Source of the DNA: Marinifilum caeruleilacunae
Lineage (GTDB): Bacteria > Bacteroidota > Bacteroidia > Bacteroidales > Marinifilaceae
Length of the DNA stretch: 64,000 nt
NCBI RefSeq assembly: GCF_013141825.1
Contig: NZ_RZNH01000006.1
Span: 1-64,000, forward strand
Reading direction: 5' to 3'
Position numbers and translations under genes: made by a program. The notes under the pieces were generated by a model. It saw nothing but the letters and a program-made list of their open reading frames with translations. It was not told the origin of the DNA and did not search any database. Of the stretch, positions 3,005 to 63,229 are shown piece by piece (position 1 is the first letter of the stretch; the number at the start of each line of letters is the position of its first letter).

Positions 3005-3014
3005 ATAGATTGGC

Positions 3015-44245: not shown

Positions 44246-44770
44246 ATGCAAGCTTTGAGAAGGCCGTATCTTTGGCACGCGATTTATACCAAATCGCGTG
44301 CAGAAAAGAGGCTGTACAAAGAATTGTGCTCAAGAAACATTGAGTGCTACCTTCCTTTAAAAAAAGAGCTTCGCCAGTGGAGCGATCGAACCAAGTGGGT
44401 CGAAGAGCCACTTATTCGTTCTTATTTGTTTGTGAAAGTCAGCGAGAGGGAGTATTACAACGTAATTAATTCTAGTTACGCTGTTCGATATGTAACTTTT
44501 GGTGGCAAAGCTGTGCCTATACCTGAAGAACAAATTCAAGCCCTTAGAGTTTTTCTCGACGATGAAAACCGTAAGGTAGATTTAAGTCATGAAAATCTGG
44601 AAAAGGGTGAATTGGTAGAGGTAATGGGAGGTCCTTTAAAAGGGATCAAAGGCGAGATCATGCAAATAAAAGGAAAGGATCGTATTGTAATTCGATTCGA
44701 TTCTTTGGGAACTTGTGTTTATACTGATATTTCGTTAGACAAGATTAAACAAGTTCAACCCATCGTTTGA
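44246..44770 (+). CDS. UpxY-family transcription antiterminator (NusG-like)
   Basis: A 174-residue protein with an NGN domain (YLWHAIYTKSRAEKRLYKEL, IECYLPLKKE, IRSYLFVKVSE, VRYVTFGGKAVPIPEEQI) and a C-terminal KOW segment (LEKGELVEVMGGPLKGIKGEI). UpxY proteins of Bacteroides stop premature transcription termination in the leader of their own capsule operon. As first gene of the large glycan locus, it fits this job. The start ATG follows a long leader. The gene ends 36 bases before the dehydrogenase gene. Confidence 0.9.
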   Translation: MQALRRPYLWHAIYTKSRAEKRLYKELCSRNIECYLPLKKELRQWSDRTKWVEEPLIRSYLFVKVSEREYYNVINSSYAVRYVTFGGKAVPIPEEQIQALRVFLDDENRKVDLSHENLEKGELVEVMGGPLKGIKGEIMQIKGKDRIVIRFDSLGTCVYTDISLDKIKQVQPIV

Positions 44771-47363: not shown

Positions 47364-48824
47364 ATGTCAGAACTAAAGAGTCAAACCATAAAAGGGGTTT
47401 TTTGGAGTTTTGTCGAAAAATTTGGGTCTCAGTTTATCTTACTGATATCACAAATTATTCTCGCTCGATTACTGGAACCTCGCGATTTTGGACTACTTGG
47501 GATGCTTGCCTTGTTTATCGCAGTTTCCCAGGCATTTATCGATAGTGGTTTTGATAATGCACTCATACAGAAAAAAGATGCCGATCAAACTGATTTTTCA
47601 ACTGTTTTCTTCTTCAATATCAGTATTGGAGTCGTATTGTATCTCATTCTGTTTTTTGGAGCACCATTAATTGCCGATTTTTTCAGAACACCCGAGTTAA
47701 TCGATCTGACTCGTGTGGTTTGTTTAATTTTGGTAATCAATTCCTTTGGTTTGATTCAGTTTGTAAAGTTCAAAATTGAGATGAACTTTAAGGCCATAGC
47801 ACAAGTAGTAGTTACAGCAAACCTGCTTTCGGCGGTTTTGGGCATTAGTTTGGCTTTACTAAATTTTGGTGTTTGGGCCTTGGCGGCTCAAGTAATGGGA
47901 ATTTATATATTCCGTACCATTTTGTTTTGGCTAAAAAGTACCTGGCGACCAAGTTTTATTTTCTCCATTCAATCCTTTAAAAGTTTATTCAACTTTGGAT
48001 CTAAACTTTTGTTGTCAGGCCTAATTAGTCAAACCTTCGAAAATATTTACCTACTGGTAATCGGAAGAATGTTCTCCGCTACGGCTTTGGGATTTTACGA
48101 TCAGGCCAGAAAGTTTCAACAAGTACCGGTTGCCACCCTGGCACAAGTGGTTGGCAATGTTACCTTCCCGGCATTTTCGAAAATTCAGGATGAAAATGAA
48201 CGATTACGAATGGGATTCAGAAAACTGATAAAACTGCTTGTGTTCATCAATTTTCCATTGATGATAGGCCTTGCAGTAATGGCTGAACCCCTATTTCAAA
48301 TTGTGTTGGGAGAAAAATGGTTGCCATCTGTTCCCTATTTTCAGTTGTTGTGTATCGCCGGAATGATCTACACACTGCATTCATCCAACCTGAATATACT
48401 AAAAGTAAAAGGTCGGTCAGACCTGTTTCTATACCTTGAAATTATAAAGAAAGTATTTGTTGTGTTGGCAATAATTATTGGTTTGCAATGGGGAATCATG
48501 GGCCTTATAGTAGGGCAGATTTTTACCTCGTTCATCAGCTTTTTTATCAATGCATTTTATACCGGAAAACTAATTTCCTATTCAACTTTCAGCCAGATTA
48601 AAGATGTGAGTTCAACATTCTTTATCACCTTACTTACTGCAGCTGTAATGAGTATTGGTTGGTTGATCGAAAATCAAATTCTATCTCTCTCTTTTCAGAT
48701 ACTTGCTGGTATCGGAACATACCTACTATTGGCTTGTGCGACAAAACAAGAAGCAGTTGGCGATGGTATCTTAATTCTTAAAGAACTTATACCTACACGA
48801 AGATGGAAAAACGTAAAATACTAG
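47364..48824 (+). CDS. polysaccharide flippase (Wzx-like, MOP superfamily)
   Basis: A 486-residue inner-membrane protein with about twelve to fourteen hydrophobic segments. The opening GVFWSFVEKFGSQFILLISQIILARLLEPRDFGLLGM and the mid-protein IYLLVIGRMFSATALGFYDQARKFQQVP are typical of the lipopolysaccharide-biosynthesis/WzxC-like group that flips lipid-linked repeat units to the periplasm. The last 22 bases overlap the next gene. It has the polymerase partner at 53927. Confidence 0.9.
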   Translation: MSELKSQTIKGVFWSFVEKFGSQFILLISQIILARLLEPRDFGLLGMLALFIAVSQAFIDSGFDNALIQKKDADQTDFSTVFFFNISIGVVLYLILFFGAPLIADFFRTPELIDLTRVVCLILVINSFGLIQFVKFKIEMNFKAIAQVVVTANLLSAVLGISLALLNFGVWALAAQVMGIYIFRTILFWLKSTWRPSFIFSIQSFKSLFNFGSKLLLSGLISQTFENIYLLVIGRMFSATALGFYDQARKFQQVPVATLAQVVGNVTFPAFSKIQDENERLRMGFRKLIKLLVFINFPLMIGLAVMAEPLFQIVLGEKWLPSVPYFQLLCIAGMIYTLHSSNLNILKVKGRSDLFLYLEIIKKVFVVLAIIIGLQWGIMGLIVGQIFTSFISFFINAFYTGKLISYSTFSQIKDVSSTFFITLLTAAVMSIGWLIENQILSLSFQILAGIGTYLLLACATKQEAVGDGILILKELIPTRRWKNVKY

Positions 48825-49987
48825 TAACAAGACCACAATTGCCACCATTAAACGAATTTATTCCTTTGTTGGCAGATATTTGGGATAGCAGGTGGTTAAC
48901 AAATAATGGAAAATACCATCAGGAATTTGAGAAGGCATTGGCCAAATACCTTGGAGTACCTTATGTGGTGCTATTTGCCAACGGAACCTTGGCACTAATG
49001 GCAGCCATTCAATGTTTGCGAATTAAGGGAGAGGTGATCACCACACCATACAGTTTTGTAGCAACTACCCATTCTTTATGGTGGAACGATATTAAACCTG
49101 TGTTTGTTGATATTGAGCCAGATTACTGCAACTTGGACCCTGAAAGAATTGAAGCGGCAATTACGCCAGCAACAACCGCAATACTGCCGGTTCATGTGTA
49201 CGGAAATCCATGTAATGTTGATAAAATACAAGACATGGCCGACTATTATGGACTAAAGGTAATTTACGATGCTGCTCATGCTTTTGGAGTACGACTGAAT
49301 GGTTCAAGTGTACTGAACTATGGCGACTTATCCATTGTAAGTTTCCATGCCACAAAAGTGTTTAATACCATCGAAGGAGGAGCAATTATTTGCCATGATA
49401 TCAAAACCAAAAAACGATTGGATTATCTGAAAAATTTTGGAATCGCAAATGAAACCACCGTAGTTGCCCCTGGAATTAATGCCAAAATGAATGAGCTGCA
49501 GGCTGCCTACGGATTATTGCAGTTAAAATACTTTGATACAGTAATTGATGGCCGCAAACACATTACAGACCGATACAAGGAAGGATTAAAAGAGATAGCT
49601 GGTATTAGATACCTTGATGAACCTGCGGGAGTGGATTACAACTATTCCTACTTTCCGATATTTATTGACGAGAATGAATTTGGTAGAAGCAGAGATGATT
49701 TATTTGAAGAGTTAAAAAAGCATGGTATTTACGGAAGAAGATATTTTTATCCGCTAATTAGTGAGTTCCCAACCTACAGGGGATTGCCTTCGGCCAAAGG
49801 ATTGGATATCGCACATGAAATATCAAGACAAATAATTTGTTTGCCTTTGTATCCCGATTTGGCCGATGATATTGTTGATTTAATCATCTCTATTGCGAAG
49901 GGCATGGCACAACCTAATATTGATAAAGTTCCGGTAAAAGTGCTTAAAACCTACAAGGAAAAACGAAAATTCCCTAAAGAAAAATAA
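48803..49987 (+). CDS. DegT/DnrJ/EryC1 sugar aminotransferase
   Basis: A 394-residue PLP enzyme that makes amino sugars from keto-sugar nucleotides. It has VVLFANGTLALMAAIQ, HVYGNPCNVDKI, VIYDAAHAFG, and the PLP-Lys185 in SFHATKVFNTIEGGAII, then FGIANE and GINAKMNELQAAYGLLQL. It starts inside the flippase gene (22-base overlap), so translation is coupled. The product sugar is not deducible; dTDP- or UDP-linked 4-keto sugars are usual substrates. Confidence 0.92.
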   Translation: MEKRKILVTRPQLPPLNEFIPLLADIWDSRWLTNNGKYHQEFEKALAKYLGVPYVVLFANGTLALMAAIQCLRIKGEVITTPYSFVATTHSLWWNDIKPVFVDIEPDYCNLDPERIEAAITPATTAILPVHVYGNPCNVDKIQDMADYYGLKVIYDAAHAFGVRLNGSSVLNYGDLSIVSFHATKVFNTIEGGAIICHDIKTKKRLDYLKNFGIANETTVVAPGINAKMNELQAAYGLLQLKYFDTVIDGRKHITDRYKEGLKEIAGIRYLDEPAGVDYNYSYFPIFIDENEFGRSRDDLFEELKKHGIYGRRYFYPLISEFPTYRGLPSAKGLDIAHEISRQIICLPLYPDLADDIVDLIISIAKGMAQPNIDKVPVKVLKTYKEKRKFPKEK

Positions 49988-49996: not shown

Positions 49997-50959
49997 ATGA
50001 ATAAGCCTTTGGTAAGTGTTAAAACCATTACCTACAATCACGAAAAATACATTGCTCAGTGTATTGAAGGAATCCTGAATCAGAAAACCAATTTCGATTT
50101 TGAATACATTATTGGAGAGGATTGCAGTACCGATAATACCATGCAAATTGTGCAAGAGTACGCAAACAAATATCCCAATATTATTAGGATAATTAGCAGT
50201 GAAGAAAATGTAGGAGCTACAAAAAACGACCAAAGAACAGACGAAGCTTGCATTGGAAAATATGTTGCTTTTTGCGAGGGAGATGATTTTTGGACCGATC
50301 CCTACAAATTACAAAAGCAGGTGGATTTTATGGAGGCAAATCCTGAGTATGGTTTGGTGCATACAAATTTCTCGTGCATAAAGGGTGAGAAAGTACTAAA
50401 GGGTTTCAGAGATGGACAAAACTTACCAACAGGAAATATTTTAAGTGAATTAATCAGGGGAAATCATATTGCTACAGCTTCTGTTTGCATGAGGAATGAT
50501 TTATTACAGTCCATTCGAATTGGAGATCCAATCAGGAAAAACAATTGGAGAATGGGCGATTACCCATTGTGGATTGAAGCGGCAGCCAGAACCAAAATTC
50601 ACTATATGGCCGATGATACAATTACCTATCGAATTCATAATACTTCGGCTACTCACGGACTTGATGTGAAAGGTGATTTCAACTTTTTTAACGATCGCTA
50701 TGCCATTAAAAGACACTATATTAAAAAGTTTGCTTGTAAGGATTTGGAGCCATTTATAAATAAAATGTATCACAGAGAATTGTTGAAATTTGCCATTTTT
50801 CTGAAAGATGAAAAGTTGAGAGAAACCTGTCTGAAGTATTTCAAAGCATCCACAATGGGGGAGAGTTTTCCTTATTTAATGTTGTCGCAATACACAATTT
50901 TCGATCCCTTATACTGCTTTGTTTATACCACACGAAAGAAACTAAAAATGGTAGTGTAA
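49997..50959 (+). CDS. family 2 glycosyltransferase
   Basis: A 320-residue GT-A enzyme. The N terminus has VKTITYNHEKYIAQCIEGIL and IIGEDCSTDNTMQIV; the metal-binding EGDDFWTDPYKLQKQVDFM follows at about residue 92. It transfers a sugar from a nucleotide donor to the growing lipid-linked unit at the inner face of the membrane. Linkage and donor are unknown. It follows the aminotransferase by nine bases and precedes the WbqC-like gene by eight. Confidence 0.9.
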   Translation: MNKPLVSVKTITYNHEKYIAQCIEGILNQKTNFDFEYIIGEDCSTDNTMQIVQEYANKYPNIIRIISSEENVGATKNDQRTDEACIGKYVAFCEGDDFWTDPYKLQKQVDFMEANPEYGLVHTNFSCIKGEKVLKGFRDGQNLPTGNILSELIRGNHIATASVCMRNDLLQSIRIGDPIRKNNWRMGDYPLWIEAAARTKIHYMADDTITYRIHNTSATHGLDVKGDFNFFNDRYAIKRHYIKKFACKDLEPFINKMYHRELLKFAIFLKDEKLRETCLKYFKASTMGESFPYLMLSQYTIFDPLYCFVYTTRKKLKMVV

Positions 50960-50967: not shown

Positions 50968-51732
50968 ATGAAAAGCCATTCGAAATCATATTTCAGAAAC
51001 CAGCTAAAAGTGGAAACCTTTCCACTTCCGGCTAGTGCTGCAATTATTCAGCCCTATTTTTTTCCATATATTGGATATTTTCAGCTGTTGTATTCGGTGG
51101 AGAAAGTGGTTTTCTATGATGATGTGAATTTTATCAAGCGTGGGTGGATCAATCGCAACCGAATTCTAATGAATCAATCGGATTTCATTTTTACGCTACC
51201 CTTAAAAAAGGCAAGTCAAAACAAACAAATTCAGGAATTAGAAATTGCAGATCTAAAATCATTTCAAAAGAAATTCAGGCAACAGCTAAAATTTGCTTAT
51301 TCGAAAGCACCTTTTTATCACGAGGTAAGCAAAATGATTGAATCTGTCCTCGATACAACTTACAACAATATTGCTGATATAGCCATTGAGAGCGTTCTAT
51401 CGGTTTTTGCTTATCTGAATATAGAGATTGACTGGATGAAATCATCCACCGAATTTGATCAAACGCATGGTCAGGAAAAAGCTGATAGATTGATTAACAT
51501 CAGCAAACAATTGGATTGTGATACTTATATCAACCCGATAGGAGGCAAAGAATTATACAGTAAGGAATATTTTAAATTATCAGGAATTGAGTTGGGATTT
51601 GTGCAGACTGGGAACATTGAATACAAACAGTTTGATCATGCTTTTGTTCCATGCTTATCGATCATCGATTTGCTGATGTTTAATGATAAGGACGCAGCCA
51701 GTTCGCTTCTGATTCAATTTCAAATTGTATAG
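50968..51732 (+). CDS. WbqC-family protein
   Basis: A 254-residue cytoplasmic protein with the family opening AAIIQPYFFPYIGYFQLLYSVEKVVFYDDVNFIKRGWINRNRIL, here in the pieces IIQPYFFPYIGYFQL and YDDVNFIKRGWINRNRI. The C-terminal part has DTYINPIGGKELYSKEYF and PCLSIIDLLMFND. WbqC proteins occur in O-antigen and capsule loci beside DegT enzymes; their reaction is not established, with an amino-sugar acyl or transferase step suggested by context. It directly precedes an ATP-grasp gene. Confidence 0.88.
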   Translation: MKSHSKSYFRNQLKVETFPLPASAAIIQPYFFPYIGYFQLLYSVEKVVFYDDVNFIKRGWINRNRILMNQSDFIFTLPLKKASQNKQIQELEIADLKSFQKKFRQQLKFAYSKAPFYHEVSKMIESVLDTTYNNIADIAIESVLSVFAYLNIEIDWMKSSTEFDQTHGQEKADRLINISKQLDCDTYINPIGGKELYSKEYFKLSGIELGFVQTGNIEYKQFDHAFVPCLSIIDLLMFNDKDAASSLLIQFQIV

Positions 51733-51758: not shown

Positions 51759-52964
51759 ATGAAAAATCAAAAAAAGAAAATACTGATTCTTGGAGGAACC
51801 TCATTTCAGGTGCCATGCATAAAATATGCAAAGGCAATGAACTATCATGTAATTACCTGTGACTATTTGCCAGATAATCCTGGGCATAAATATTCCGATG
51901 AATTTTACAATGTAAGCACAACCGATTTGAAGGCGGTGCTGAAATTGGCCAGAAAACTTGAAGTTGATGGAGTGTTGGCCTATGCATCAGATCCGGCTGC
52001 TCCAACTGCCGCTTATGTAGCCGAAAAAATGGGTTTGCCCGGAAATCCTTACAAATCGGTTAAAACCTTGTCAGAAAAAGACTTGTATCGCAGTTTTCTT
52101 CGCTTAAAAAAATTCAATACTCCATTTTATGGAGCTTATTCCAGTTTAAAGGATTTTGCCGATTCCCAAGAGGAGTTTCAGTATCCAATTCTTGTAAAAC
52201 CGGTTGATTCGAGTGGAAGTAAGGGAATTAGCGCAGTAAATGACTTTTGGGAGATGGACAAGGCCATCACTCATGCCATGAAATTTTCGCGTTGTAAAAG
52301 ATTCATTGTTGAGGAGTTTATCGAAAAGAAATACCCGCAGTTAGATGGAGATATTTTTGTGTACAATGGTAAAATTATTGCCTACTACCTGGGCGACCAG
52401 GGCAATGATGTTGAGGTGAATCCTTTCGTTCCTTCAAGTATCAATTATCCATCTTTATTGCCTAAAAATATCCACGTAAAAATCCAATCGGAATTGCAAC
52501 GAGCAATCGATTTGTTAAAAATAAAATTTGGCGGATTTAATATCGAAGTGATTGTTGATGAGAAGGATGAAATATACCTGATTGAAATCGGAGCTCGAAA
52601 TGGGGGCAACTGCATTCCCGATATTATAAAATGCGCAAGCAATGTGGATATGATTAAAATGAGTGTAGATGCCTGCATGGGAGTAGAACCAAAAATTCAA
52701 AACCGAAAGGATATCAATAATTTTTATACCACTTACGTGATTCATTCCAATGAAGATGGAAAATTTAAATCATTAAAAGTACATGAAAGCATTACCGATT
52801 ATGTACTCGATATTCGCCTGATGGTGGAAAAAGGAGGCAATGTATACAGGTTTAGTGGATCGAATTGTACTGTTGGAATAGGTTTGTTAGAATTTCCAAA
52901 TTTGCAGATTCGCGATAAAATGATGGATAAAATTGAAGAGTTTATTGCCGTTGAACTGGAATAA
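51759..52964 (+). CDS. ATP-grasp ligase of the polysaccharide locus
   Basis: About 401 residues from ATG 51759, which has AGGA upstream; an in-frame GTG at 51732 overlaps the WbqC-like stop and is less likely. The N-terminal preATP-grasp fold (KILILGGTSFQVPCIKYAKAM) is followed by LSEKDLYRSFL, YPILVKPVDSSGSKGI (ATP loop), IVEEFIEK and the metal-binding IYLIEIGARNGGN. Relatives are the PurK/CarB-like ATP-grasp enzymes, which join a carboxylate to an amine via an acyl phosphate. Here the carboxylate could be the uronic acid or an amino acid; that is inference. Confidence 0.85.
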   Translation: MKNQKKKILILGGTSFQVPCIKYAKAMNYHVITCDYLPDNPGHKYSDEFYNVSTTDLKAVLKLARKLEVDGVLAYASDPAAPTAAYVAEKMGLPGNPYKSVKTLSEKDLYRSFLRLKKFNTPFYGAYSSLKDFADSQEEFQYPILVKPVDSSGSKGISAVNDFWEMDKAITHAMKFSRCKRFIVEEFIEKKYPQLDGDIFVYNGKIIAYYLGDQGNDVEVNPFVPSSINYPSLLPKNIHVKIQSELQRAIDLLKIKFGGFNIEVIVDEKDEIYLIEIGARNGGNCIPDIIKCASNVDMIKMSVDACMGVEPKIQNRKDINNFYTTYVIHSNEDGKFKSLKVHESITDYVLDIRLMVEKGGNVYRFSGSNCTVGIGLLEFPNLQIRDKMMDKIEEFIAVELE

Positions 52965-52970
52965 TAGCAA

Positions 52971-53930
52971 ATGGTTAGAGCAATTGGTGGATATTTCGAA
53001 TTGGAGAACCGATTCGAATCGGAATATTATCCGAATTTAATTCGACTGAATACAGGTCGAAACTGCCTGGAATATATCCTTCGTGCCCGCGCATACAAAA
53101 AAGTTTATTTGCCCGAGTACTCTTGCGATGCAGTATTGGAACCCATTTTAAAATTGGGGCTCGAATACGAAAAATATCCAATTAACAAGCAATTAGAGCC
53201 AGTCAATTTAGTACATCCAAAAGAGGATGAAGCTTTCCTGGTAATTAATTATTTCGGTTTAAAAGGAAGATACATTACCTTTTTAACCCGGCGTTTGCAC
53301 AATTTAATCATCGATAATTCACAGGCTTTTTTCGAAGCACCAATCAATGGATTTGACACCTTTTATTCGGCCCGTAAATTTTTTGGAGTGGCCGATGGAG
53401 CATACTTGCATACCGATAATGCTCCTTACATGGATTTTAAACAGGAAATATCCTGGAAAAGAAGCGAACACCTTTTACGACGCCTCGAAAACGGACCTAA
53501 TGATGGATATGAGGCCTTCAAACGCAATGAAGAATATTTGTGTGGTAAGGAAATAAAACTCATGTCAGATTTAACCTATCGTATTTTATCAGGCATCGAT
53601 TATGCTGCAGTAAAGAGTCGCAGAAACAGGAATTTTCAATACCTGCACCTAAAATTAAAAGGCTTAAATGGCATTACATTTAGCGATACTGATATCGATG
53701 GACCAATGGTTTATCCGTTTTATGTAGAGAATAAGAATTTAAGAGAAGAATTGATTCGAGAGCATATCTATGTAGCCACATATTGGCCAAATGTTTTGCA
53801 GGATACCAATGAGGATCAGCTGGAAAACAAGCTCACCAAATACCTGATCCCGCTCCCTGTCGATCAACGATATGGATTGTTAGATATGGACAGGATTTGC
53901 AAGTTGATCATATCATATTTGAACTCATGA
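52971..53930 (+). CDS. DegT-like PLP-fold protein, small and divergent
   Basis: A 319-residue protein related to DegT aminotransferases but shorter. NTGRNCLEYILRARAY near the start resembles the PLP-phosphate loop, LIIDNSQAFFEAP the Asp that contacts the PLP ring, and SARKFFGVADGAYL holds the likely PLP-Lys136. The C-terminal region has PFYVENKNLREELI and YWPNVL. It may be an aminotransferase, or a related enzyme acting on an odd keto sugar. Its stop overlaps the start of the next gene (ATGA). Confidence 0.75.
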   Translation: MVRAIGGYFELENRFESEYYPNLIRLNTGRNCLEYILRARAYKKVYLPEYSCDAVLEPILKLGLEYEKYPINKQLEPVNLVHPKEDEAFLVINYFGLKGRYITFLTRRLHNLIIDNSQAFFEAPINGFDTFYSARKFFGVADGAYLHTDNAPYMDFKQEISWKRSEHLLRRLENGPNDGYEAFKRNEEYLCGKEIKLMSDLTYRILSGIDYAAVKSRRNRNFQYLHLKLKGLNGITFSDTDIDGPMVYPFYVENKNLREELIREHIYVATYWPNVLQDTNEDQLENKLTKYLIPLPVDQRYGLLDMDRICKLIISYLNS

Positions 53931-55192
53931 AATACATTGAAATCGGTTTTTGGTTTCTGATATTTTTTGTAGCCTTTTATTTGAAAGCTTATACCGTAGG
54001 CGGACAGGAAATGGTTTACTTGTGGAAACTCCCTCTCTTGTTGTTTCTGATTTCGAGAGTAGTAGGTCAGGAAACCAGGTATGCCTTTTTGATATTGGCT
54101 TATTTGTTTGCCGCAAAAAACCTTGTGAACGTTTCATTCTTTAAATTCCCGGTTGATTCGATTATAAATTTTATCAAATACCTCACCATTCCTTTGTTTG
54201 TACATTGGTTGTATTTGAATATTAACAGTGTTGGAGCATTAAAAAGATTAAGGTTGATACCGGTATATATGGCAGCCTTCTTTATTATTTGTAATGTACC
54301 CTATTATTTTGGCGTTTTTTCGGCACCCGTTACCACCATGCTGTGGATGGAAGATACCAAACTCGATGGACTGATTGGTTTCCTGGGAGCACCACATTAC
54401 ACATCGGCAGTGCTTGCAGTTGCTTGTGTTGTTCTGGTCGATTTTCTGGTCAAAAGGCGAGGAGATTTACGAATCAATTTAATTGTAATTCCAATACTTC
54501 TGGTAGGTGTATTTTTCTTGTTTAAAACCTACACCCGAACAGGATGGTTAATGTTTGTAGTTGGGATTTTGGTACTGTTTCTAAGAAGAATTTCCTTTAA
54601 GGATTTAGGTAAGATTGCTGCAGTTGGAGTTGTGTTAGTTATTGGTTTATCGGTTCTGTTCCAAACCAATGAGGGATTCAGACGCAGAATTATGGACGAC
54701 AGGGCTGGTCAAGAGGACAAATCGGCCTATGAAACCGTAGGCTCAGGACGTTTACAGATTGCAGAAATTTACCTGGAGAACCTATACCAGAGCAATTTTG
54801 TGACCTACCTTGTTGGAATGGGAATGGAAGAATCGCAAAGGAGGTATGAAAAGAAAGATGGAATGCCACTTTTTGCACACAATGGATTTATACAAACCCT
54901 GGTTGATAATGGATTAATTGGTTTTGCACTTTATCTGTTATTTCTAATTACATTATACAGGGCCATATCGGGCTCGCAAAGTAGTCATAACCAGCTGACT
55001 GTTTCGGTGTTTTTCATGTTTTTATCATGCCTGGCCACGCAGCAAGCCAATTACTTTTTGGTTGATGTTTTTCTGTCCATATACATCGGCATAGCATTAA
55101 TCGAGAACCGAATTAACCAATATGTTGATTACAAGCGCAAGTCGGAAGCTTATGAAGATCTTGAACATACTGCTCCCGCTTATCGCAGATGA
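53927..55192 (+). CDS. O-antigen polymerase/ligase-like membrane protein (Wzy type)
   Basis: About 421 residues from ATG 53927, which overlaps the upstream stop as ATGA; a TTG at 53897 would start earlier but within the previous gene. At least ten hydrophobic segments are present, with the Wzy_C-like loop GFLGAPHYTSAVLAVACVV, FKTYTRTGWLMFVVGIL and, late, GMEESQRRYEKKD followed by FAHNGFIQTLVDNGLIG, the pattern of O-antigen ligases/polymerases (RTG and HN-x-F residues). It would polymerise the repeat units in the periplasm. It overlaps the next gene by ATGA as well. Confidence 0.85.
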   Translation: MKYIEIGFWFLIFFVAFYLKAYTVGGQEMVYLWKLPLLLFLISRVVGQETRYAFLILAYLFAAKNLVNVSFFKFPVDSIINFIKYLTIPLFVHWLYLNINSVGALKRLRLIPVYMAAFFIICNVPYYFGVFSAPVTTMLWMEDTKLDGLIGFLGAPHYTSAVLAVACVVLVDFLVKRRGDLRINLIVIPILLVGVFFLFKTYTRTGWLMFVVGILVLFLRRISFKDLGKIAAVGVVLVIGLSVLFQTNEGFRRRIMDDRAGQEDKSAYETVGSGRLQIAEIYLENLYQSNFVTYLVGMGMEESQRRYEKKDGMPLFAHNGFIQTLVDNGLIGFALYLLFLITLYRAISGSQSSHNQLTVSVFFMFLSCLATQQANYFLVDVFLSIYIGIALIENRINQYVDYKRKSEAYEDLEHTAPAYRR

Positions 55193-56346
55193 AAAAAACT
55201 CAAATGTATAGTTTTAGTTTAATTACCTTAGAAGATCTGAAAGAGATCAAATATTTCTCGGCTTTCCCAGGGAATCAGGCCAGTTGGTTAAGCGATTGGT
55301 ATCATACTTTTAAAAGTAAAAACGACAATGACTTTGGAAGCCAAAAAAAGCCATATATCATTACCGCATATCATGGCAGTAAGTTGGTTGCCATTGTTCC
55401 CTTGCTGAAATTAAGCCGAACATATTTTAAGTTTTTTAAGTTGCATTTTGTCGAATTTTTAGGGCAGCAATGGTCGGGAATGGGCTACGATATTTTAAAG
55501 ATACGAGAGCTGGAAGATTGTTTTGCTCAGGATCTTGTAAAATGGATCAGGAGAAATATTTCATATCACTTCTTGATTTTCAAATACCTGCCAAAAACCA
55601 GTCAGCTAAAACACCGATTTAAATTCTACAAATATGCAGGAGCTCCATTTATAAATCCGTTGACCTATAAGAACTACAAGCACTTTACACAAAATGTATA
55701 CACCAGAAAATTCCGCGAAGATTTACGCAGAACGCTCAGGCGAATAAAAAAAGATGGTTTCGAAATGAGCGTGGAACAAAAACTGGTAAATGAAGAAAGC
55801 TTAAAGTTGATTAAGGAAATATCGGCAAGTAAAACAAGCGATGGAAAAGGCAATTTGTACGAAAGCAAAGTGAAAGCAGATTTTCACAAGAAAATGTACA
55901 AGAACATGCAATCGCAGGTAATCTTTATCAAGTTTAATGGAAAGGCAGTTGCCTATGGAACATGCATCGATTTTAATGACCAGAGAATTGGTGTTGATGC
56001 AGCTTTTGACAGGAGTTTTAGAAAATATGGAGTAGGGATTCATTGTATCGACCAGGTGATTCGATCTTGCTTTCGCGATAAGCTCACAAAACTTTCTTTT
56101 GGAGTAGGAATGGATGCTTACAAATTTCAGTTTACCAATTCTATAGAAGAATTTTACATGTGTTTCGATTTCAAGTATAGGCTAAAGTCATTGTTGGTAC
56201 TGCCTTATTTTCATTATAGGATCAAAAAAATGAATCAGTCTGTTTCTTCGATCTTACAGAAAAACAAAGAGCAAGTAAAAGCTAAAACAGAAAATATTAC
56301 AACCTCTAAAAACAAAATGAACTTTGTTCAAAGTATTGAAATGTAG
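55189..56346 (+). CDS. GNAT/FemAB-like transferase, paralogue 1
   Basis: A 385-residue protein of the GNAT-fold, BioF2-like/FemAB-related type. The N-terminal half holds FLGQQWSGMGYDIL and WIRRNISYHFLIFKYLP; the C-terminal half has RKFREDLRRTLRRIKKDG, KAVAYGTCIDFNDQRIGVDAAFDRSFRKYGVGIHCID and FGVGMDAYKFQF, the family core motif. Relatives transfer acyl or aminoacyl groups onto sugars or peptides. It shares its layout all along with the next gene, so the two arose by tandem duplication. ATG overlaps the polymerase stop codon. The acyl donor and acceptor are unknown. Confidence 0.8.
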   Translation: MKKTQMYSFSLITLEDLKEIKYFSAFPGNQASWLSDWYHTFKSKNDNDFGSQKKPYIITAYHGSKLVAIVPLLKLSRTYFKFFKLHFVEFLGQQWSGMGYDILKIRELEDCFAQDLVKWIRRNISYHFLIFKYLPKTSQLKHRFKFYKYAGAPFINPLTYKNYKHFTQNVYTRKFREDLRRTLRRIKKDGFEMSVEQKLVNEESLKLIKEISASKTSDGKGNLYESKVKADFHKKMYKNMQSQVIFIKFNGKAVAYGTCIDFNDQRIGVDAAFDRSFRKYGVGIHCIDQVIRSCFRDKLTKLSFGVGMDAYKFQFTNSIEEFYMCFDFKYRLKSLLVLPYFHYRIKKMNQSVSSILQKNKEQVKAKTENITTSKNKMNFVQSIEM

Positions 56347-56380
56347 AATGATATCGTAAAAAAAAGAAGCCTTTGATTAT

Positions 56381-57529
56381 ATGTATCGATTCGAAACAAT
56401 TACAATTGAAGCACTTGAAAACCTGGATTACAAAGCAAATTTCCCCACCAATCGATTTGAATGGATTAGTTGCTGGTACGAGGTTTTTAAGAAGGTAGAA
56501 AATAATATTGTTGGGTTCAACAAGAAACCCTATATCATCACTGTTTATAAAGGGGAGGAACTAGTAGCTATTGTTCCTTTGGTAAAACTGGTGAGGAAAT
56601 ATTTGAAATTTATCCGTATATCCTTCCTTGAGTTTTTAGGGCAACAATGGTCTAGCTTAGGAAATGATATCATGATATTCGGGAAAGTTGATAAGCTTTT
56701 TTATCAAGAGCTGAAAAAATGGATCAGCAAAAACATTTCCTACGATTTTATCTTTCTAAAGTACATCCCCAAACAGTCTGAATTGGAAACTTGTTACCAC
56801 CTGTTTCATTATTCGGTGGCTCCTAGTCTTCAATTGAATAATTATGAAGGCTATCAGGATTTTACAAAAAAAATATACTCTAAGAAATTTAGAGAAGAAC
56901 TGAAACGGACTTCGAGGAAATTGAGGAGAGAAAATTTGGAATATACCATTGAGGTAAGGGAAATCAATCAAGAAAATTTAGAATCGATCAAGCACATTTC
57001 AAGATCCAAAAAGATAGATGGCAAAAGCTTTTTATATGCCAACTCGCAAAAAGAAGCATTTCACTTACAAGTTTACAAGAGTTTTCCATCTCAAATACTA
57101 TTGGTCAAACTCAACGATGAAATTGTAGCTTATTCAACCTCAATTGATTGGCAGGGAAAGCGACTGTGTATCGATTCATCTTTCAACAGAAAATTCCGAA
57201 AATATGGCATAGGAATTCATTGTATCGATTCTTGTATCAGCAATGCTTTTGATGATGCCAAAGAAAAGCTTTCGCTGGGAATGGGGCACGACTCTTATAA
57301 ATTTAGATTTTGTGATGATATCATTTATTATTTCATGTGTTTTGATTTCAAATTCACTCCTAAAGCTTTATTGGTGTTGCCTTTCTTGAAGTATCGAATC
57401 GTAAAAACTCATGAACAAGTACAAGCTCAAGTTCAAAAACTATCTGCTCATCTGAAAATAAAGAAGAAGACATTGCATAAGAATGGAAAGGAAGTGCCAT
57501 TGCTTGCCATTGAAAAACAAATACTCTAA
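56381..57529 (+). CDS. GNAT/FemAB-like transferase, paralogue 2
   Basis: A 382-residue paralogue of the preceding gene. Matching pieces include KKPYIITVYKGEELVAIVPLVKL, FLGQQWSSLGNDI, KKFREELKRTSRKLRRENL, RKFRKYGIGIHCID and LGMGHDSYKFRF. The two copies have diverged throughout, so they probably act on different groups or positions rather than being a fresh duplication. The C-terminal 40 residues are Lys/Gln-rich. It follows its twin by 34 bases and precedes the deacetylase by five. Confidence 0.8.
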   Translation: MYRFETITIEALENLDYKANFPTNRFEWISCWYEVFKKVENNIVGFNKKPYIITVYKGEELVAIVPLVKLVRKYLKFIRISFLEFLGQQWSSLGNDIMIFGKVDKLFYQELKKWISKNISYDFIFLKYIPKQSELETCYHLFHYSVAPSLQLNNYEGYQDFTKKIYSKKFREELKRTSRKLRRENLEYTIEVREINQENLESIKHISRSKKIDGKSFLYANSQKEAFHLQVYKSFPSQILLVKLNDEIVAYSTSIDWQGKRLCIDSSFNRKFRKYGIGIHCIDSCISNAFDDAKEKLSLGMGHDSYKFRFCDDIIYYFMCFDFKFTPKALLVLPFLKYRIVKTHEQVQAQVQKLSAHLKIKKKTLHKNGKEVPLLAIEKQIL

Positions 57530-57534
57530 AAAGA

Positions 57535-58455
57535 ATGAATACACTAAAGAAATACATAGCCGATATTTTAGGATTTGTTCTTTTACTGATTTTTGAAAAA
57601 AGCGCATTAAAAAGGTTCGACAAACAGGTTTTATCCATCTATTTTCACAATCCATCGCTTTTGCTTTTTAAAGGAATCATTCGCTATCTGCTTTCTAAAG
57701 GTTTTAGCTTTATCTCGGAAAATGATTATTACAAGATTATTAATGGAGAGAAGCAGGCAGAAGAAAGAAGCGCATTTGTCTCTTTCGACGATGGTTGGAA
57801 AGGCAATCTGAAATTGATTCCTTTTCTGGAGAAATATCAGATTCCGGCAACATTTTTTATTCCCGTAAGGCCAGTTATGACAGGTAATTTCTGGTGGGAA
57901 TATGCACCGATTGTGATCAGTGAAAATCCAGATTTTACGAGTTTGGATGAACTTAAACAATTGCCAAACCATAAAAGATTGAGCCTGATTCGTGATGCAG
58001 CTGCGAACTACGACTTAAAAAGATCCTGTATCGATCTGTCGGAACTAAAGCGACTGAGCGAAAATCCATTAATTAGCATTGGTTCGCATACCTACCATCA
58101 TCCAATCACCATACAATGTTCGGATGCTGAGCTGGAATTTGAATATCGGGAATCTAAAAAAGCCTTGGAAGAATGGCTATCTGTTGAAATTCAGTCCTTT
58201 TCGTTTCCCAATGGAGATTACAACCAGAGAGATCTGGCCTTGCTCAAACAATACAATTACAGAATGGCTTTTACGGTAAATCCGGATTTAGAAACAAATG
58301 CAATTTCTGAATACCAAATACCAAGAGTTTCTATCAATTCAAAGGGCGGGAAATATGAGAATATTGCGCGCATGTTAAGGGTATGGCACAGGTTCGTTCA
58401 ACCATTACAGCACAAGCCCTTATTTGGATTTAAGCCTAAATTATCAGGAAGTTAA
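57535..58455 (+). CDS. polysaccharide deacetylase (NodB-type)
   Basis: A 306-residue carbohydrate esterase family 4 protein. The N terminus has a hydrophobic segment (residues 8-22) that could be a signal or anchor. Metal and catalytic motifs: FVSFDDGWKGN (Asp-Asp), IPATFFIPV, GSHTYHHP (His-x-x-x-His) and SFSFPNGDY. It removes acetyl from N-acetylated sugars, exposing an amine that could receive another acyl group. The acceptor in this locus could be an N-acetyl sugar of the glycan. The next gene starts just after it or slightly within its end. Confidence 0.85.
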   Translation: MNTLKKYIADILGFVLLLIFEKSALKRFDKQVLSIYFHNPSLLLFKGIIRYLLSKGFSFISENDYYKIINGEKQAEERSAFVSFDDGWKGNLKLIPFLEKYQIPATFFIPVRPVMTGNFWWEYAPIVISENPDFTSLDELKQLPNHKRLSLIRDAAANYDLKRSCIDLSELKRLSENPLISIGSHTYHHPITIQCSDAELEFEYRESKKALEEWLSVEIQSFSFPNGDYNQRDLALLKQYNYRMAFTVNPDLETNAISEYQIPRVSINSKGGKYENIARMLRVWHRFVQPLQHKPLFGFKPKLSGS

Positions 58456-58468
58456 AACAATTAAAGCA

Positions 58469-59551
58469 GTGAAAGAGGTTCTATACATAGCACCGGGAAA
58501 TCAGAACTCGAAGGGCGGCATTGGTTTGTGTGTAAACAATTACTCCAAATACATGTCCGATTTTAAAGTTTTGGTTACCCACCGATTTACATCCAGGCTG
58601 TTAAACACCATTTGGTTTCCGCTTTGTATTATCGAGATGTTATTTATCCTGATAAAGGACCGAGACATAAAAATATTGCACATTCATGGAGCTTCGAAGG
58701 GGAGTTTTTATCGCAAGTATATCTTGTTTGTGATTGCCAGGTTTTTTACGGGCAAGAAAATCATTTATCACATTCATGGAGGTGGATTTCGCGATTTTTA
58801 CCTGAATGCTTCGAAGTTTATCCAGAAAAGGATTCGCTATGTAATTAACTCGGCCGACCTTGTGATTTGCCTATCGGAAAAGTGGAAACATTTTTACACC
58901 AGTGCATTTAAACCAAAACAAATCAAGATTTTAAATAATATGATTATTCCGCCTGTAAATACAGAGCGAATGATTACCAATGATAAATGTAAGTTGTTAT
59001 TTCTGGGCCTGATTGGCGACAATAAAGGCATTTTCGATTTAATTAAAACCATCGCTAAAAATCGAAATCAATTCGAAGAAACACTCGAATTAAAGATTGC
59101 AGGAAATGGCGAAGTAGATCGTCTAACAGATGCAATTTCGAAGTGGAACATTCAGAATATTGTAAGCTTCGAAGGTTGGGCCGATCAAAATAAAAAGGAG
59201 GAACTTTTCCGATCTTCAGACATTTTTATTTTGCCATCCTACAAAGAAGGTTTGCCTTTGTCCATTCTCGAAGCTATGAGCTATGGATTGCCAATTATTT
59301 CAAGTAAAGTTGGAGGAATTCCCGACCTGATTCACAAAAGCAGGAATGGAATTCTGGTTGTTCCGGGAAATCAGCGAGCCATAAAAAATGCAATTATCAA
59401 GTTAATGAACAATCGAGATCTTTGCGAAAACTACTCACACAATTCAACAAAAGCAGTTGTTGATTATTATCCAGACCGCGTATTAAAATCATTATTCTCA
59501 ATCTACCATGAACTACAGGGGAATAAGGGATTACTTTTTGAGCAAAATTAA
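58469..59551 (+). CDS. family 4 glycosyltransferase
   Basis: About 361 residues from GTG 58469, just after the deacetylase stop; a TTG at 58424 would lie inside that gene. The protein has the GT-B layout: APGNQNSKGGIGLCVNNYSK at the N terminus, IHGGGFRDFY, LLFLGLIGDNKGIFDLIKT, and the donor-site EGLPLSILEAMSYGLPIISSKVGG with the E-x7-E pair. It adds a sugar to the lipid-linked unit. The end overlaps the next gene by 44 bases. Donor and linkage are unknown. Confidence 0.87.
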   Translation: MKEVLYIAPGNQNSKGGIGLCVNNYSKYMSDFKVLVTHRFTSRLLNTIWFPLCIIEMLFILIKDRDIKILHIHGASKGSFYRKYILFVIARFFTGKKIIYHIHGGGFRDFYLNASKFIQKRIRYVINSADLVICLSEKWKHFYTSAFKPKQIKILNNMIIPPVNTERMITNDKCKLLFLGLIGDNKGIFDLIKTIAKNRNQFEETLELKIAGNGEVDRLTDAISKWNIQNIVSFEGWADQNKKEELFRSSDIFILPSYKEGLPLSILEAMSYGLPIISSKVGGIPDLIHKSRNGILVVPGNQRAIKNAIIKLMNNRDLCENYSHNSTKAVVDYYPDRVLKSLFSIYHELQGNKGLLFEQN

Positions 59552-60836
59552 ATTCGGAAAAGGATTTGAAAAGGAATTAAAAAGAATCAAGGAGCTATAC
59601 TCAATCAGCGAGTCCCAACTATCAGAATTAAAACACCAAGAATTTGTAAAGCAATATCGCAACGCCTTTTTACACTCGAAGTTTTATAACAAACTTTATC
59701 GGGAACATGGCCTAAGTATCAATTCGGTAAAATCTATTGATGACGCCGAAAAGATTCCCATCATCACAAAAGATGACATCAGGCATTGCGTTGACGATCT
59801 GTTAACAAGCAATCGGTTGTTTGTATACAAGGCTTTTACCAGCGGAACAACAGGTTCTCCATTAAAGCTGTATCGCGATTATCAATCGGTTTGTAAAGAA
59901 TATTCTTACGGATATCATTTTCAGAACATTCATGGTTACACTTTAGGTGATAAAGTTATTTCCATTAAAGGGGATCTCGATAAAGATGAAATCTCCAGGT
60001 TCGATAAATCCTTGAATACCCTGCATCTGTCAAGTTATAACCTGAACGAGAAAAACATTCTAAAGTACTATGATTTAATCAGTAAGTTTCAGCCTAAAGT
60101 GGTGAAGGGATATCCGAGTTCATTACAGATTTTATCGACCGAATTGTATAAAAAAGGACTGGAACTTCATATTCCAATTGCTTTTACCTCTTCTGAAGTG
60201 TTGCACGATTGGCAACGCAGAATTATCGAAAAAGTATTGCATTCCAAACTTATCGATTGGTATGGAAATTCGGAGCAAACCATCGCATTGGGGCAGGTAA
60301 AAGAGGATTTGTACCAGGATGTTCCGCTTTACGGGCATATCGAAGTAAAAGAGAACCATATCATTACCACTGGTTTTATCAACAAATCTTTTCCATTGAT
60401 TCGATACCAGGTGGATGATATCATTAAGTTAAAGTGTGATTCGAGCTGTATAAGGTGTTGTACATCGAGAATATTGGGGCGCGATAACCAGTATGTAATG
60501 CTTAAGAATGGACAGCAAATTGGTTTACTCGATCATGCCTTCAATTTTAACAATATTAAAAATATTCTGGCGGCACAGATTGTACAAAAGGTTCCCGGCG
60601 AAATCGATTTGAACATCATACCCGACTATAGCTTTACCGAAAAAAATAAAGCCGAACTCTTAAAGAATTTAACCCAACTGGTAACAGAGGATTGCACAAT
60701 ACATTACAATGAAATTAGCGAGGATCAAATTATAAAAACGAAGGCAGGAAAGTTTAACCTGATGGTTTCTTACCTGGATACAAAGGAGAAAGATGCCGCT
60801 ACAAAGCAAATTTTAAAAGAGATTGAGTCGCCTTAA
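59508..60836 (+). CDS. CapK-like (phenylacetate-CoA-ligase family) adenylating enzyme, paralogue 1
   Basis: A 442-residue ANL-superfamily protein. The AMP loop is TSGTTGSPLKLYRD (residues about 115-128), followed by KGYPSSLQIL, TSSEVL and DWYGNSEQTIALGQV (adenine and Mg-ATP contact), with the hinge region ILGRDNQYVML. The C-terminal lobe ends near residue 430 and has KAGKFNLMV, including the likely catalytic Lys. Family members (CapK, PaaK) activate carboxylic acids as acyl-adenylates. I keep ATG at 59508, overlapping the glycosyltransferase by 44 bases, because the paralogue has the same N-terminal length. Substrate unknown. Confidence 0.83.
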   Translation: MNYRGIRDYFLSKIKFGKGFEKELKRIKELYSISESQLSELKHQEFVKQYRNAFLHSKFYNKLYREHGLSINSVKSIDDAEKIPIITKDDIRHCVDDLLTSNRLFVYKAFTSGTTGSPLKLYRDYQSVCKEYSYGYHFQNIHGYTLGDKVISIKGDLDKDEISRFDKSLNTLHLSSYNLNEKNILKYYDLISKFQPKVVKGYPSSLQILSTELYKKGLELHIPIAFTSSEVLHDWQRRIIEKVLHSKLIDWYGNSEQTIALGQVKEDLYQDVPLYGHIEVKENHIITTGFINKSFPLIRYQVDDIIKLKCDSSCIRCCTSRILGRDNQYVMLKNGQQIGLLDHAFNFNNIKNILAAQIVQKVPGEIDLNIIPDYSFTEKNKAELLKNLTQLVTEDCTIHYNEISEDQIIKTKAGKFNLMVSYLDTKEKDAATKQILKEIESP

Positions 60837-60853
60837 TGGCAAAATAAGAAGAC

Positions 60854-62119
60854 ATGGCAGTACAGTTAATCAAAGATTTGATTGCCTATAAAATAAAATT
60901 TGGCAGAGCATTCGAGCGCGAATTGAGACGGATCATTGAGCTTGATCAGATGTCTAAAAATGAAATTTTAGAGCTCAAAAGCCAGGAGTTTGTGAAGCAA
61001 TATCGAAATGCCTATTCAAATTCACCTTTTTACAAAGAACTGTACCAAAAGCATGCTTGTAATCTAAACTCAATTCAAGATCTTTCAGACATTAGAAAGC
61101 TACCTGTAATTTCAAAGGTAGATGTAAGAACCAATGCAAAGCAGATTCTTGCCAAATCGAGACTTTGCGTATTTAAAGCCTACTCGAGTGGAACCACAGG
61201 AACACCCTTACAGGTTTATCGTGATTTTTCATCTACGATAAAAGAATATGCTTACGGTCATTTTTTTCAGCAGATGCATGGCTATCACCTTGGCGATCGG
61301 GTTGTGTCGCTTCGAGGAACTCTAAACCGAAATACCTTTTCATATTTCGACAAAAGTAACAATGTTTTGTACCTGTCTTCCTATCATTTAAAATCCGACA
61401 GAATAGAGGAATACTACAAACTGATTAAAGATTTTAAACCAAAAGTAATTAAAGCTTACCCCAGTTCCATGCATATTTTGGCAACCGAGCTGCACCAGAA
61501 AGGATTGAGCCTCGATATTCCAATTGGCTTTACATCGTCGGAGGTTTTGCACGGATTTCAGAAGGAAATTGTTGAAAAAACTTTGCACACAAAAGTTTAC
61601 GATTGGTATGGAAACGCTGAACAAACTGTGGCATTAGGACAGTTCGAAGATGAATTGTACCGCGAGTTTCCGCTCTACTCACATACCGAATTCGAAGATG
61701 ATCATTTAATTACGACAAGCTTTATCAATTCAGCATTTCCTTTGATTCGCTATCGGGTTGATGATGTTGTGAAATTGGCTTCGTGCAGCAATGGTTTGTG
61801 TGTGATAAAAAAAATTGAAGGTCGGGATGATGATTATATCATTCTGAAGAATGGGCAGAAAATTGGTCGACTTGATCTTGCTTTTAAGCAGGCCAGGGAA
61901 ATTTTAGCTGCCCAGATCATACAAGAGCAGCCTGGCGAAATTCAGGTGAATCTAATTCCTGATAAAAAGTTTGCATTAAAAAATCAGAACGAAATAGAAA
62001 ACAACTTGCGTGATTTGCTTGGAGCCGAGTGCCAAATTCGCTTCAAAAAAATTGAAACCGGAGGGCTCATCAGAACCGAAAAAGGAAAGTTTAACCTGGT
62101 GGTATCGAAATTGAAATAG
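60854..62119 (+). CDS. CapK-like adenylating enzyme, paralogue 2
   Basis: A 421-residue paralogue of the previous gene: SSGTTGTPLQVYRD, KAYPSSMHILATEL, TSSEVLHGF, DWYGNAEQTVALGQF, IEGRDDDYIILKNGQKIG and RTEKGKFNLVV. It keeps the P-loop, the YGxxEQ motif and the terminal Lys region, so it should be active. Sequence differences lie mainly in the substrate-binding part of the large domain, which suggests a second carboxylic substrate. It follows the first copy by 17 bases and precedes the ATP-grasp gene by nine. Confidence 0.83.
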   Translation: MAVQLIKDLIAYKIKFGRAFERELRRIIELDQMSKNEILELKSQEFVKQYRNAYSNSPFYKELYQKHACNLNSIQDLSDIRKLPVISKVDVRTNAKQILAKSRLCVFKAYSSGTTGTPLQVYRDFSSTIKEYAYGHFFQQMHGYHLGDRVVSLRGTLNRNTFSYFDKSNNVLYLSSYHLKSDRIEEYYKLIKDFKPKVIKAYPSSMHILATELHQKGLSLDIPIGFTSSEVLHGFQKEIVEKTLHTKVYDWYGNAEQTVALGQFEDELYREFPLYSHTEFEDDHLITTSFINSAFPLIRYRVDDVVKLASCSNGLCVIKKIEGRDDDYIILKNGQKIGRLDLAFKQAREILAAQIIQEQPGEIQVNLIPDKKFALKNQNEIENNLRDLLGAECQIRFKKIETGGLIRTEKGKFNLVVSKLK

Positions 62120-62128
62120 CTGTATTGC

Positions 62129-63229
62129 ATGAGAAGTTCAAAAGAAAAAATATTGGTAGTTGGAGCTGGGCCACAAGCACTGTTTCTGGTTCGCGAGTTG
62201 AGTCGTTTGCAATATCATGTAATTTTAATTGGGAGAAAAAACGAAATTGCCATGCACTCTAAATACGCCGAGAAAAAGGCAATTCGAAGCGAGGAACATT
62301 TGGTATTGGAGCTTAATTCCCTGGCAAACACTTACCCCAAATTAAAAGCTCATGTTGCGAGTGGTTTCTATTTGGCTTTTCTGATGAACCATTTTCCAAG
62401 GTTTTTTCAATTGTACCAGGTAATGCCAGGACATAAGGCCTCGATTGAGCAATTGATGTGCAAGGCAAAAACCTACCAACTGGCTAAGAATACCGATGTT
62501 TTGTATCCGAAAAGTAGTTTACTGGCTGATGTGGAGAAGCTTAAAATGGTAAACCAGCTTTCTTACCCACAAATTGTAAAATGGGACAGGGACATATTTC
62601 TGTACGAGAAACCAAAATTTAAAACCCGCCTGGTAGGCAATACGGCAGAAATGATTGATCTGCTTAAAGCATTGAACGATGAGGAGAAGAATTCACTCCT
62701 AAGCCAGGATTTTTTAGGTGCCGATTTAAGAAACAATTTTTCTTACGGAGCCTATGTGGTCGATGGAAAGGTATGTTTGGATATCAGTGTAAACGAAGTA
62801 AGACATTTCAGATCGGGAGTTTCATCGGTTGTAGAAGAGTACACCGGAAAGTACACCAAGGAGATACAAGAGCAGTCGCAAGCCATTTTGGCTCAAACTC
62901 AATTTACCGGATTTCTTGATGTCGAATTCAAAATAAAAGATGGTAAACTGTACTTGTTGGAGGTCAATCCGCGACCATTTGGTTTCATAAAAATCATGAA
63001 AAAGAAATATCCCGAACTCATTCCATATGTAATGGGTCGAAAAGAAGTTGCTTACCGAAATCCAAAGCCTGTCAAGTGGATCAATGTATTACGCGATTTG
63101 GTTCTGATTATGAGAAAACCAAGCGAGGTTTTTCACATGCTTAAAGTCTTATTCGATTTTAATAAGCGAACATTCGATGTTTGGGACATTAGCGATCCGC
63201 TTCCATTTTTCTATCAAATGAAAAGATAA
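62129..63229 (+). CDS. ATP-grasp family protein, second in locus
   Basis: A 366-residue protein. It starts with a preATP-grasp nucleotide fold (ILVVGAGPQALFLVRELSRL), has YPQIVKWDRD in the ATP loop position, LSQDFLGADLRN and the metal-binding pair in TGFLDVEFKIKDGKLYLLEVNPRPFGF. This resembles carbamoyl-phosphate-synthase-like ATP-grasp proteins found beside CapK-type genes in glycan loci. It could ligate an amine to a carboxylate of the glycan precursor. The substrate is unknown. Confidence 0.8.
   Translation: MRSSKEKILVVGAGPQALFLVRELSRLQYHVILIGRKNEIAMHSKYAEKKAIRSEEHLVLELNSLANTYPKLKAHVASGFYLAFLMNHFPRFFQLYQVMPGHKASIEQLMCKAKTYQLAKNTDVLYPKSSLLADVEKLKMVNQLSYPQIVKWDRDIFLYEKPKFKTRLVGNTAEMIDLLKALNDEEKNSLLSQDFLGADLRNNFSYGAYVVDGKVCLDISVNEVRHFRSGVSSVVEEYTGKYTKEIQEQSQAILAQTQFTGFLDVEFKIKDGKLYLLEVNPRPFGFIKIMKKKYPELIPYVMGRKEVAYRNPKPVKWINVLRDLVLIMRKPSEVFHMLKVLFDFNKRTFDVWDISDPLPFFYQMKR

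Follow-up and report, generated by a model that had tools for sequence, protein, structure and literature searches.

A Wzx/Wzy-type polysaccharide operon of Marinifilum caeruleilacunae that combines a deacetylase with tandem GNAT transferases, tandem CapK-like enzymes and two ATP-grasp-like proteins

Introduction

Combining a deacetylase with a transferase of the Fem or GNAT type is a published logic for the modification of bacterial glycans. In the Caulobacter holdfast, the deacetylase HfsH and the GNAT-superfamily N-acyltransferase HfsK act on one surface polysaccharide, according to the accessible part of the report (PMC5362036). An excerpt on the Wbp/Vim pathway describes VimE as a putative deacetylase, followed by VimA-dependent aminoacyl transfer to the amine that this exposes on an amino uronic acid (PMC7468200). 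In the capsule of Campylobacter jejuni, the C-terminal ATP-grasp amidoligase of Cj1438 forms an amide on a uronic acid, as stated in the available text (PMC11800379). Here we analyse a locus of Marinifilum caeruleilacunae that unites a carbohydrate deacetylase and two tandem GNAT transferases with two CapK-like adenylate-forming enzymes and two ATP-grasp-like proteins. It lies in a window of 64,000 nucleotides (bases 1–64000 of contig 168 of the 5.27-Mb draft genome) and is part of a single operon.

Like HfsH/HfsK, the locus pairs a polysaccharide deacetylase with a GNAT-superfamily transferase. Unlike HfsK, for which the accessible text gives FemX as the closest solved relative, the window GNATs match no solved Fem structure, and CapK and ATP-grasp, both present in the window, are not mentioned in that part of the HfsH/HfsK report (PMC5362036). 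With the Wbp/Vim pathway, as excerpted, the locus shares its occurrence in Bacteroidota and a putative deacetylase followed by predicted acyl transfer to the freed amine, whereas it has neither a TIGR03019 match nor a recognised WbpB- or WbpD-type operon gene and adds CapK and ATP-grasp (PMC7468200). As with Cj1438, an ATP-grasp enzyme is encoded in a surface polysaccharide locus, an amide on a uronic acid being only inferred in our case; in the available account, the TupA-like domain of Cj1438 is fused to a glycosyltransferase, while the window ATP-grasp proteins are separate (PMC11800379). The latter also resemble L-amino acid ligase or carbamoyl-phosphate-synthase-like ATP-grasps more than the TupA-like domain. 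The locus varies a known chemistry of polysaccharide decoration in a way that is conserved and specific to its lineage, and does not represent a new class of system. A preliminary description of this DNA had known of no pathway with this gene set. The exact set was likewise not found in the literature, a weak result given the limited coverage, but its deacetylase and Fem/GNAT logic is that of HfsH/HfsK and VimE/VimA.

Results

The preliminary description had presented the locus as a doubled module of three pairs, and intact open reading frames were found at all the places it gave. For two of the pairs, the BLASTP identities and E-values lie far beyond chance and identify true tandem duplicates: GNAT transferases a (55189..56346) and b (56381..57529) are 46% identical over 365 amino acids (E 3e-124), and CapK-like enzymes a (59508..60836) and b (60854..62119) are 52% identical over 423 amino acids (E 3e-168). 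ATP-grasp ligase 1 (51759..52964; analysed as 51762–52961, the true start being the ATG at 51759) and ATP-grasp-like protein 2 (62129..63229) have no recognisable relation by BLASTP (best E 0.017 over 31 amino acids), and the term doubled is therefore unfit for them. The gene list was also incomplete, since it overlooked a DegT-like gene (52971..53930), a deacetylase-like gene (63252..64346) and the remainder of the operon up to Wzc. All of these genes are on the plus strand.

The transferases had been called FemAB-like, a label that does not hold. Both pass the cut-off of 22 bits for PF13480 (Acetyltransf_6, GNAT), with 50.4 bits for a and 39.5 bits for b. At E 0.01, PF13480 was matched by all 22 transferase family members tested and the FemAB model PF02388 by none of the 22, and on these grounds we rejected a FemAB identity for the window pair; four of the 22 weakly match a phosphatidylglycerol lysyltransferase domain. 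Neither the NCBIfam Fem models nor TIGR03019 matched the window GNATs. The same genome provides a control in the form of a tandem FemAB pair on contig 1 (255291–257246; L107:9205–11286, minus strand), both members of which match PF02388; the member searched also matched FemX structures (E 1.7e-10). The genome has PF13480 genes in two places, the window and contig 1, and only the contig 1 pair matches TIGR03019 (95 and 84.6 bits, both under the cut-off of 260). Profile comparison between the two pairs yielded a short, weak match (E 0.015, probability 3%). Judging from these matches, the contig 1 proteins appear to be better candidates than the window pair for a VimA acting on the linking sugar of the type IX secretion system (T9SS). 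The contig 1 pair is part of a second decoration locus, in which its neighbours include a PF01522 deacetylase, a deacetylase-like gene that was recognised by eye and has no Pfam match, and ATP-grasp, HAD and epimerase genes.

The CapK pair belongs to the CapK/PaaK-type adenylate-forming enzymes. CapK b matches the PaaK structure 4r1l (phmmer, E 9.2e-17), and the columns SGT[TS]G, YGN[AS]E and a C-terminal lysine, which we take to be the adenylation motifs that matter, are conserved across 12 aligned CapK proteins, including CapK a. Neither protein is PaaK itself, as TIGR02155 gave 81.5 bits for b and 43.4 bits for a against a cut-off of 646.3, and the NCBIfam DVU1553/PaaK-type match of a was also below its cut-off. 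No further CapK relative was found at E 1e-30 in this genome outside the window locus. The assignment of two ATP-grasp proteins is secure for protein 1, which exceeds the cut-offs of PF07478 (39.2 over 24 bits) and PF13535 (37.2 over 27 bits) and has 4dim and the L-amino acid ligase 3vot as its nearest solved structures. Protein 2 matches ATP-grasp models only below all curated cut-offs listed, the best Pfam match being PF15632 with 23.7 against 29.1 bits, next to an NCBIfam PRK12767-type match of 39.5 bits; it also aligns over a short stretch with carbamoyl phosphate synthetase (E 3.7e-4).

The predicted deacetylase was confirmed: deacetylase 1 (57535..58455) is of the CE4 type, with 73 bits for PF01522 over a cut-off of 23.1. 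Its BLASTP comparison with the contig 1 deacetylase was not significant (E 0.08). The deacetylase-like protein 2 (63252..64346, running past the window end at 64000; L002:53–1147) has an intact frame that is kept in relatives and no Pfam match at cut-off; its NodB-like motifs, recognised by eye only, make it a probable second deacetylase.

The DegT-like protein beside ATP-grasp 1 (52971..53930) likewise has no Pfam match of its own, and its description as a remote DegT-family protein of the pyridoxal-phosphate type comes from PF01041 matches of its relatives. A closer relative (L110) falls just under the cut-off (E 0.0011), and three more distant ones (L112, L113, L114) match at 3e-15 to 1e-22, while L115 has no match. 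Direct profile comparison with the DegT protein of the window gave E 0.24 and a probability of 0.3%, and a search of its alignment profile against solved structures returned two chance-level matches only. In five of nine other places (L112–L116, three genera), DegT-like genes adjoin a gene of the Fem/GNAT type, the neighbour in L115 being below the Pfam cut-off; no such neighbour was seen in the remaining four (L109, L110, L111, L117), where the neighbours were not Pfam-scanned. In L117 (genome G143, 1–1188 and downstream), a relative of ATP-grasp 1 is followed by a decayed DegT-like relative with seven internal stops, and the pair of ATP-grasp 1 and DegT-like genes therefore also exists outside the family.

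Within the home family (57 genomes; CapK b searched at E 1e-30, GNAT a and ATP-grasp 2 at E 1e-10), relatives were found in 19 genomes for CapK b, in 18 for GNAT a and in 18 for ATP-grasp 2, with all three in 17. Independent occurrence of the genes in relatives, which had been set beforehand as the test of their linkage, was thus largely absent at the family level. One genome (G026) has CapK and GNAT relatives without ATP-grasp 2. Another (G045) has a distant CapK (37% identity) and a distant ATP-grasp 2 (24%) side by side without a GNAT a relative, and these two may therefore be an older pair; in its locus L041 (807–3557), the CapK gene is directly followed by the ATP-grasp 2 relative. In a Labilibaculum genus-group genome that is 63% complete (G032), no CapK was found. 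The nearest named relatives of the window genome are Marinifilum species, and the gene order is common to Marinifilum and Labilibaculum loci. Plasmid-borne spread of the transferase was considered and rejected, as there were no matches among 72,556 plasmid records.

At least two CapK genes are present in 17 of the 57 family genomes. A third CapK gene, in L031 (genome G051, 2238–3506), stands alone beside genes that look by eye like metal-efflux genes, with no recognised polysaccharide gene in the 20-kb stretch. The CapK tree (76 rows, built without frames of up to 380 amino acids and without the 14 loci L023–L029 and L033–L039, of which all but L033 and L037 are, judged by length, on the same contigs as other loci) shows one old duplication, with a and b each forming a clade across Marinifilum and Labilibaculum; G026 retains only the b-side CapK (support 94/86). 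The transferase tree (36 rows, frames over 300 amino acids from L030, L033, L037, L040 and L042–L055 only) groups GNAT a with GNAT b on a single Marinifilum branch (94/92) and contains a third transferase type, which 13 of the 16 remaining loci carry and the window genome lacks. The size of the transferase array also differs between loci: among 15 loci with a CapK pair and the full stretch from Wzy to deacetylase 1, the window included, two have one copy, nine have two and four have three (not counted were L031, L041, L040 with its single CapK, and L025 and L029, which are partial). Labilibaculum euxinus A4, Marinifilum sp. D714 and M. flexuosum DSM 21950 exemplify arrays of one, two and three copies, respectively. 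ATP-grasp 1 is present in one or two copies, with or without a DegT-like neighbour, and L038 holds a shortened DegT-like frame together with an ATP-grasp 1 remnant. The doublings are several separate, unequal duplications of different ages. A coordinated doubling of the whole module was rejected, as copy numbers and trees disagree, and the two-two-two pattern is therefore partly coincidence.

We also looked for CapK relatives in one genome per species across 84,980 species and obtained 56 loci, 42 of which are outside the Marinifilum/Labilibaculum group and are called distant here; several of the stretches end at contig ends. None of these 42 has a window-type GNAT, ATP-grasp 1, ATP-grasp 2, DegT-like or WbqC relative (phmmer, E 1e-4). 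In seven of them (L068, at 8182–8922, L072, L075, L076, L086, L088 and L089; six with Chitinophagaceae or Chitinophaga/Ferruginibacter labels and one unassigned Bacteroidetes), a single family of short genes is represented by one to three copies, 0.15 to 2.1 kb upstream of CapK. The profile built from 12 of the encoded proteins matched the contig 1 FemAB pair with an hhalign probability of 96% (E 1.1e-9). A deacetylase 1 homologue was found in 8 of the 42 loci, and six contain both a deacetylase and FemAB-type genes (Fisher p 3.6e-5, a value that overstates independence because the loci are related). These six, five from Chitinophagaceae (L068, L072, L075, L076, L089) and the unassigned L086, resemble the window in having a deacetylase 1 homologue, GT4 and alpha/alpha-barrel genes and, upstream of CapK, transferase genes that are tandem or single. 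They differ from it in their shorter FemAB-type transferases, their one CapK and the absence of phmmer matches to the DegT-like, WbqC and both ATP-grasp genes. Among 395 genomes of the phylum, GNAT a was found in its own genome alone and CapK b in 14, its own included, with at most 33% identity in the others. One CapK locus, L078, is on a contig labelled as a Streptomyces griseus metagenome-assembled genome and groups with a Chitinophagaceae row (100/100); the assembly is therefore probably mislabelled or contaminated.

The operon as a whole comprises 23 closely packed genes on the plus strand (26.9 kb, 44246 to about 71160), with 22 intergenic junctions of -44 to +185 bases. It opens with a NusG-family antiterminator (44246..44770; PF02357, 56.9 bits), followed by the UDP-N-acetylmannosamine dehydrogenase WecC (44807..46093; NCBIfam NF008286, 505.8 bits, cut-off 459), which would yield UDP-N-acetylmannosaminuronic acid (UDP-ManNAcA), and the UDP-N-acetylglucosamine 2-epimerase WecB (46128..47351; TIGR00236, 489.5 bits, over the cut-off). 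Next come a Wzx-type flippase (47364..48824; PF13440, 313.7 bits), a DegT-family sugar aminotransferase (48803..49987; PF01041, 334.6 bits; best NCBIfam match DesI-like, 294 bits, below the cut-off of 650), a GT2 glycosyltransferase (49997..50959; PF00535, 83.9 bits) and a WbqC-family protein (50968..51732; PF08889, 233.4 bits). ATP-grasp 1 and the DegT-like gene precede a Wzy-type polymerase (53927..55192; PF04932, 56 bits), the two GNAT genes and deacetylase 1, and a GT4 glycosyltransferase (58424..59551; PF00534, 125 bits) separates these from CapK a, CapK b, ATP-grasp 2 and the deacetylase-like gene 2. The last five genes encode an alpha/alpha-barrel-type protein (64343..65542; L002:1144–2343), which weakly matches pectate lyase, GH88 and GH127, followed by transferases of the WecG family and of the WcaJ sugar-phosphate type, and by Wza and Wzc. 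Pfam and NCBIfam scans thus recognised flippase, polymerase, sugar-phosphate transferase, Wza and Wzc, all the components of a Wzx/Wzy operon. UDP-ManNAcA is a likely building block because WecC and WecB pass curated cut-offs, and with the downstream WecG-family transferase the product is probably a Wzx/Wzy-dependent surface polysaccharide containing ManNAcA. A role in anti-phage defence was rejected after a PADLOC search with five of the proteins gave no match.

Discussion

We tentatively favour, at somewhat less than even confidence, a reading in which the repeat unit of this polysaccharide carries N-acyl groups that replace or accompany acetyl, with CapK-activated acids moved by the GNAT transferases and amide groups added by the ATP-grasp proteins. 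Deacetylase 1 would free the amine of an amino sugar, or a DegT-type enzyme would make one. The CapK-like enzymes would adenylate carboxylic acids, probably passing them on to acyl-coenzyme A (CoA) as their relative PaaK does, and the tandem PF13480 transferases would move the acyl group onto the amine. ATP-grasp 1, next to the DegT-like protein, may make amide-linked groups, perhaps with an amine from that protein, and ATP-grasp 2, tied to CapK, may add further ones. The chain of activating acids, freeing an amine and transferring the acyl group had already been suggested, and it is still the best reading, aided by the co-occurrence in 17 of 57 family genomes and the six distant loci described above; its framing as one coordinated doubled module did not survive.

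Several points weigh against it. Gene content, motif columns, paralogy, co-occurrence and recurrence are observed, from which all reactions and substrates are deduced, and neither CoA use nor the acid preference of CapK is readable from sequence. No solved relative of the window GNATs was detected, FemX included, their alignment profile giving no matches among solved structures. In addition, one to three transferase copies accompany a constant two CapK genes, and the copy numbers do not track each other. By profile, the Chitinophagaceae-type transferases show no relation to the GNATs of the window (probability 0.8%), and the one scanned had no Pfam match. Among solved structures they come closest to an aminoacyl-tRNA-dependent peptide synthase (E 0.005), so that the donor there may be a tRNA and not the CapK product. 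Furthermore, 35 of the 42 distant loci, several of them cut by contig ends, are without any of the transferase relatives searched, and CapK can therefore work without them.

The company of CapK in the distant loci bears on a different division of labour, in which CapK is separate from the GNATs and provides an acid for O-acylation or for a step tied to GT4, the alpha/alpha-barrel protein or WecG, while the GNATs re-acylate amines from acetyl-CoA or cell-wide acyl-CoA. GT4 genes occur in 31 of these 42 loci, alpha/alpha-barrel genes in 21 and WecG-family genes in 12, next to MBOAT genes in two and GDSL genes in three, and CapK may therefore serve several acyl-transfer steps, the MBOAT and GDSL genes also counting against the coupling that we favour. 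The complete lack of window-type GNATs in the same loci and the lone CapK of L031, away from recognised polysaccharide genes, fit this separation too. However, all 18 GNAT-bearing family genomes also have CapK, G045 being the one CapK genome without GNAT, and FemAB-type genes are found near CapK in seven of the distant loci. We consider the separation rather unlikely. A tRNA-dependent GNAT pair comparable to FemX, with CapK and ATP-grasp serving other steps, would agree with the weak lysyltransferase domain matches, which point to the same broad superfamily, and with the FemAB-type genes that take the place of the transferases in Chitinophagaceae CapK loci. Given the absence of PF02388 matches among the 22 family members, the missing FemX structure match and the short, weak profile match to the contig 1 pair, this is very improbable.

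Alternatively, the locus could make the glycan that anchors T9SS cargo, with the GNATs and deacetylase as VimA and VimE parts that place an amino acid on a deacetylated uronic acid. The genome encodes 21 T9SS C-terminal sorting domains, the locus has ManNAcA genes, and the Tannerella linking sugar is, according to the excerpted report, a mannuronic acid derivative with an N-glycyl group, whose synthesis involves VimE and VimA (PMC7468200). The best of the 21 sorting domains belongs to a subtilase-like protein with repeats seen by eye, encoded on the minus strand of the window (7522–11403). However, the window GNATs lack the TIGR03019 match that VimA has in that report (PMC7468200), a better FemAB/TIGR03019-type pair is present on contig 1, and Pfam scans of the 23 genes in the operon recognised nothing of the WbpB or WbpD type. 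Moreover, searches of the 57 family genomes with the transferase, CapK and ATP-grasp 2 found no relative in 39, 38 and 39 of them, respectively. With the TIGR03019 mismatch and the contig 1 pair, we rejected the linking sugar as first choice and regard it as improbable.

The coupling of CapK-activated acids to the GNAT transferases might also extend beyond Marinifilaceae. With little confidence, CapK loci of Bacteroidota could be viewed as a system for glycan acylation or aminoacylation, in which a soluble enzyme adenylates acids for a rapidly duplicating set of GNAT/Fem-type transferases, duplication changes which sugar amines carry a non-acetyl group, and the ATP-grasp proteins of Marinifilaceae extend the substituent into a peptide-like chain. 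If the favoured reading is correct, CapK, for which no assigned step was found in the limited literature covered, would be tied to the acyl supply of GNAT/Fem-type transferases. Moreover, the natural series of one, two or three transferases on a constant background could be used to map each transferase to its substituent.

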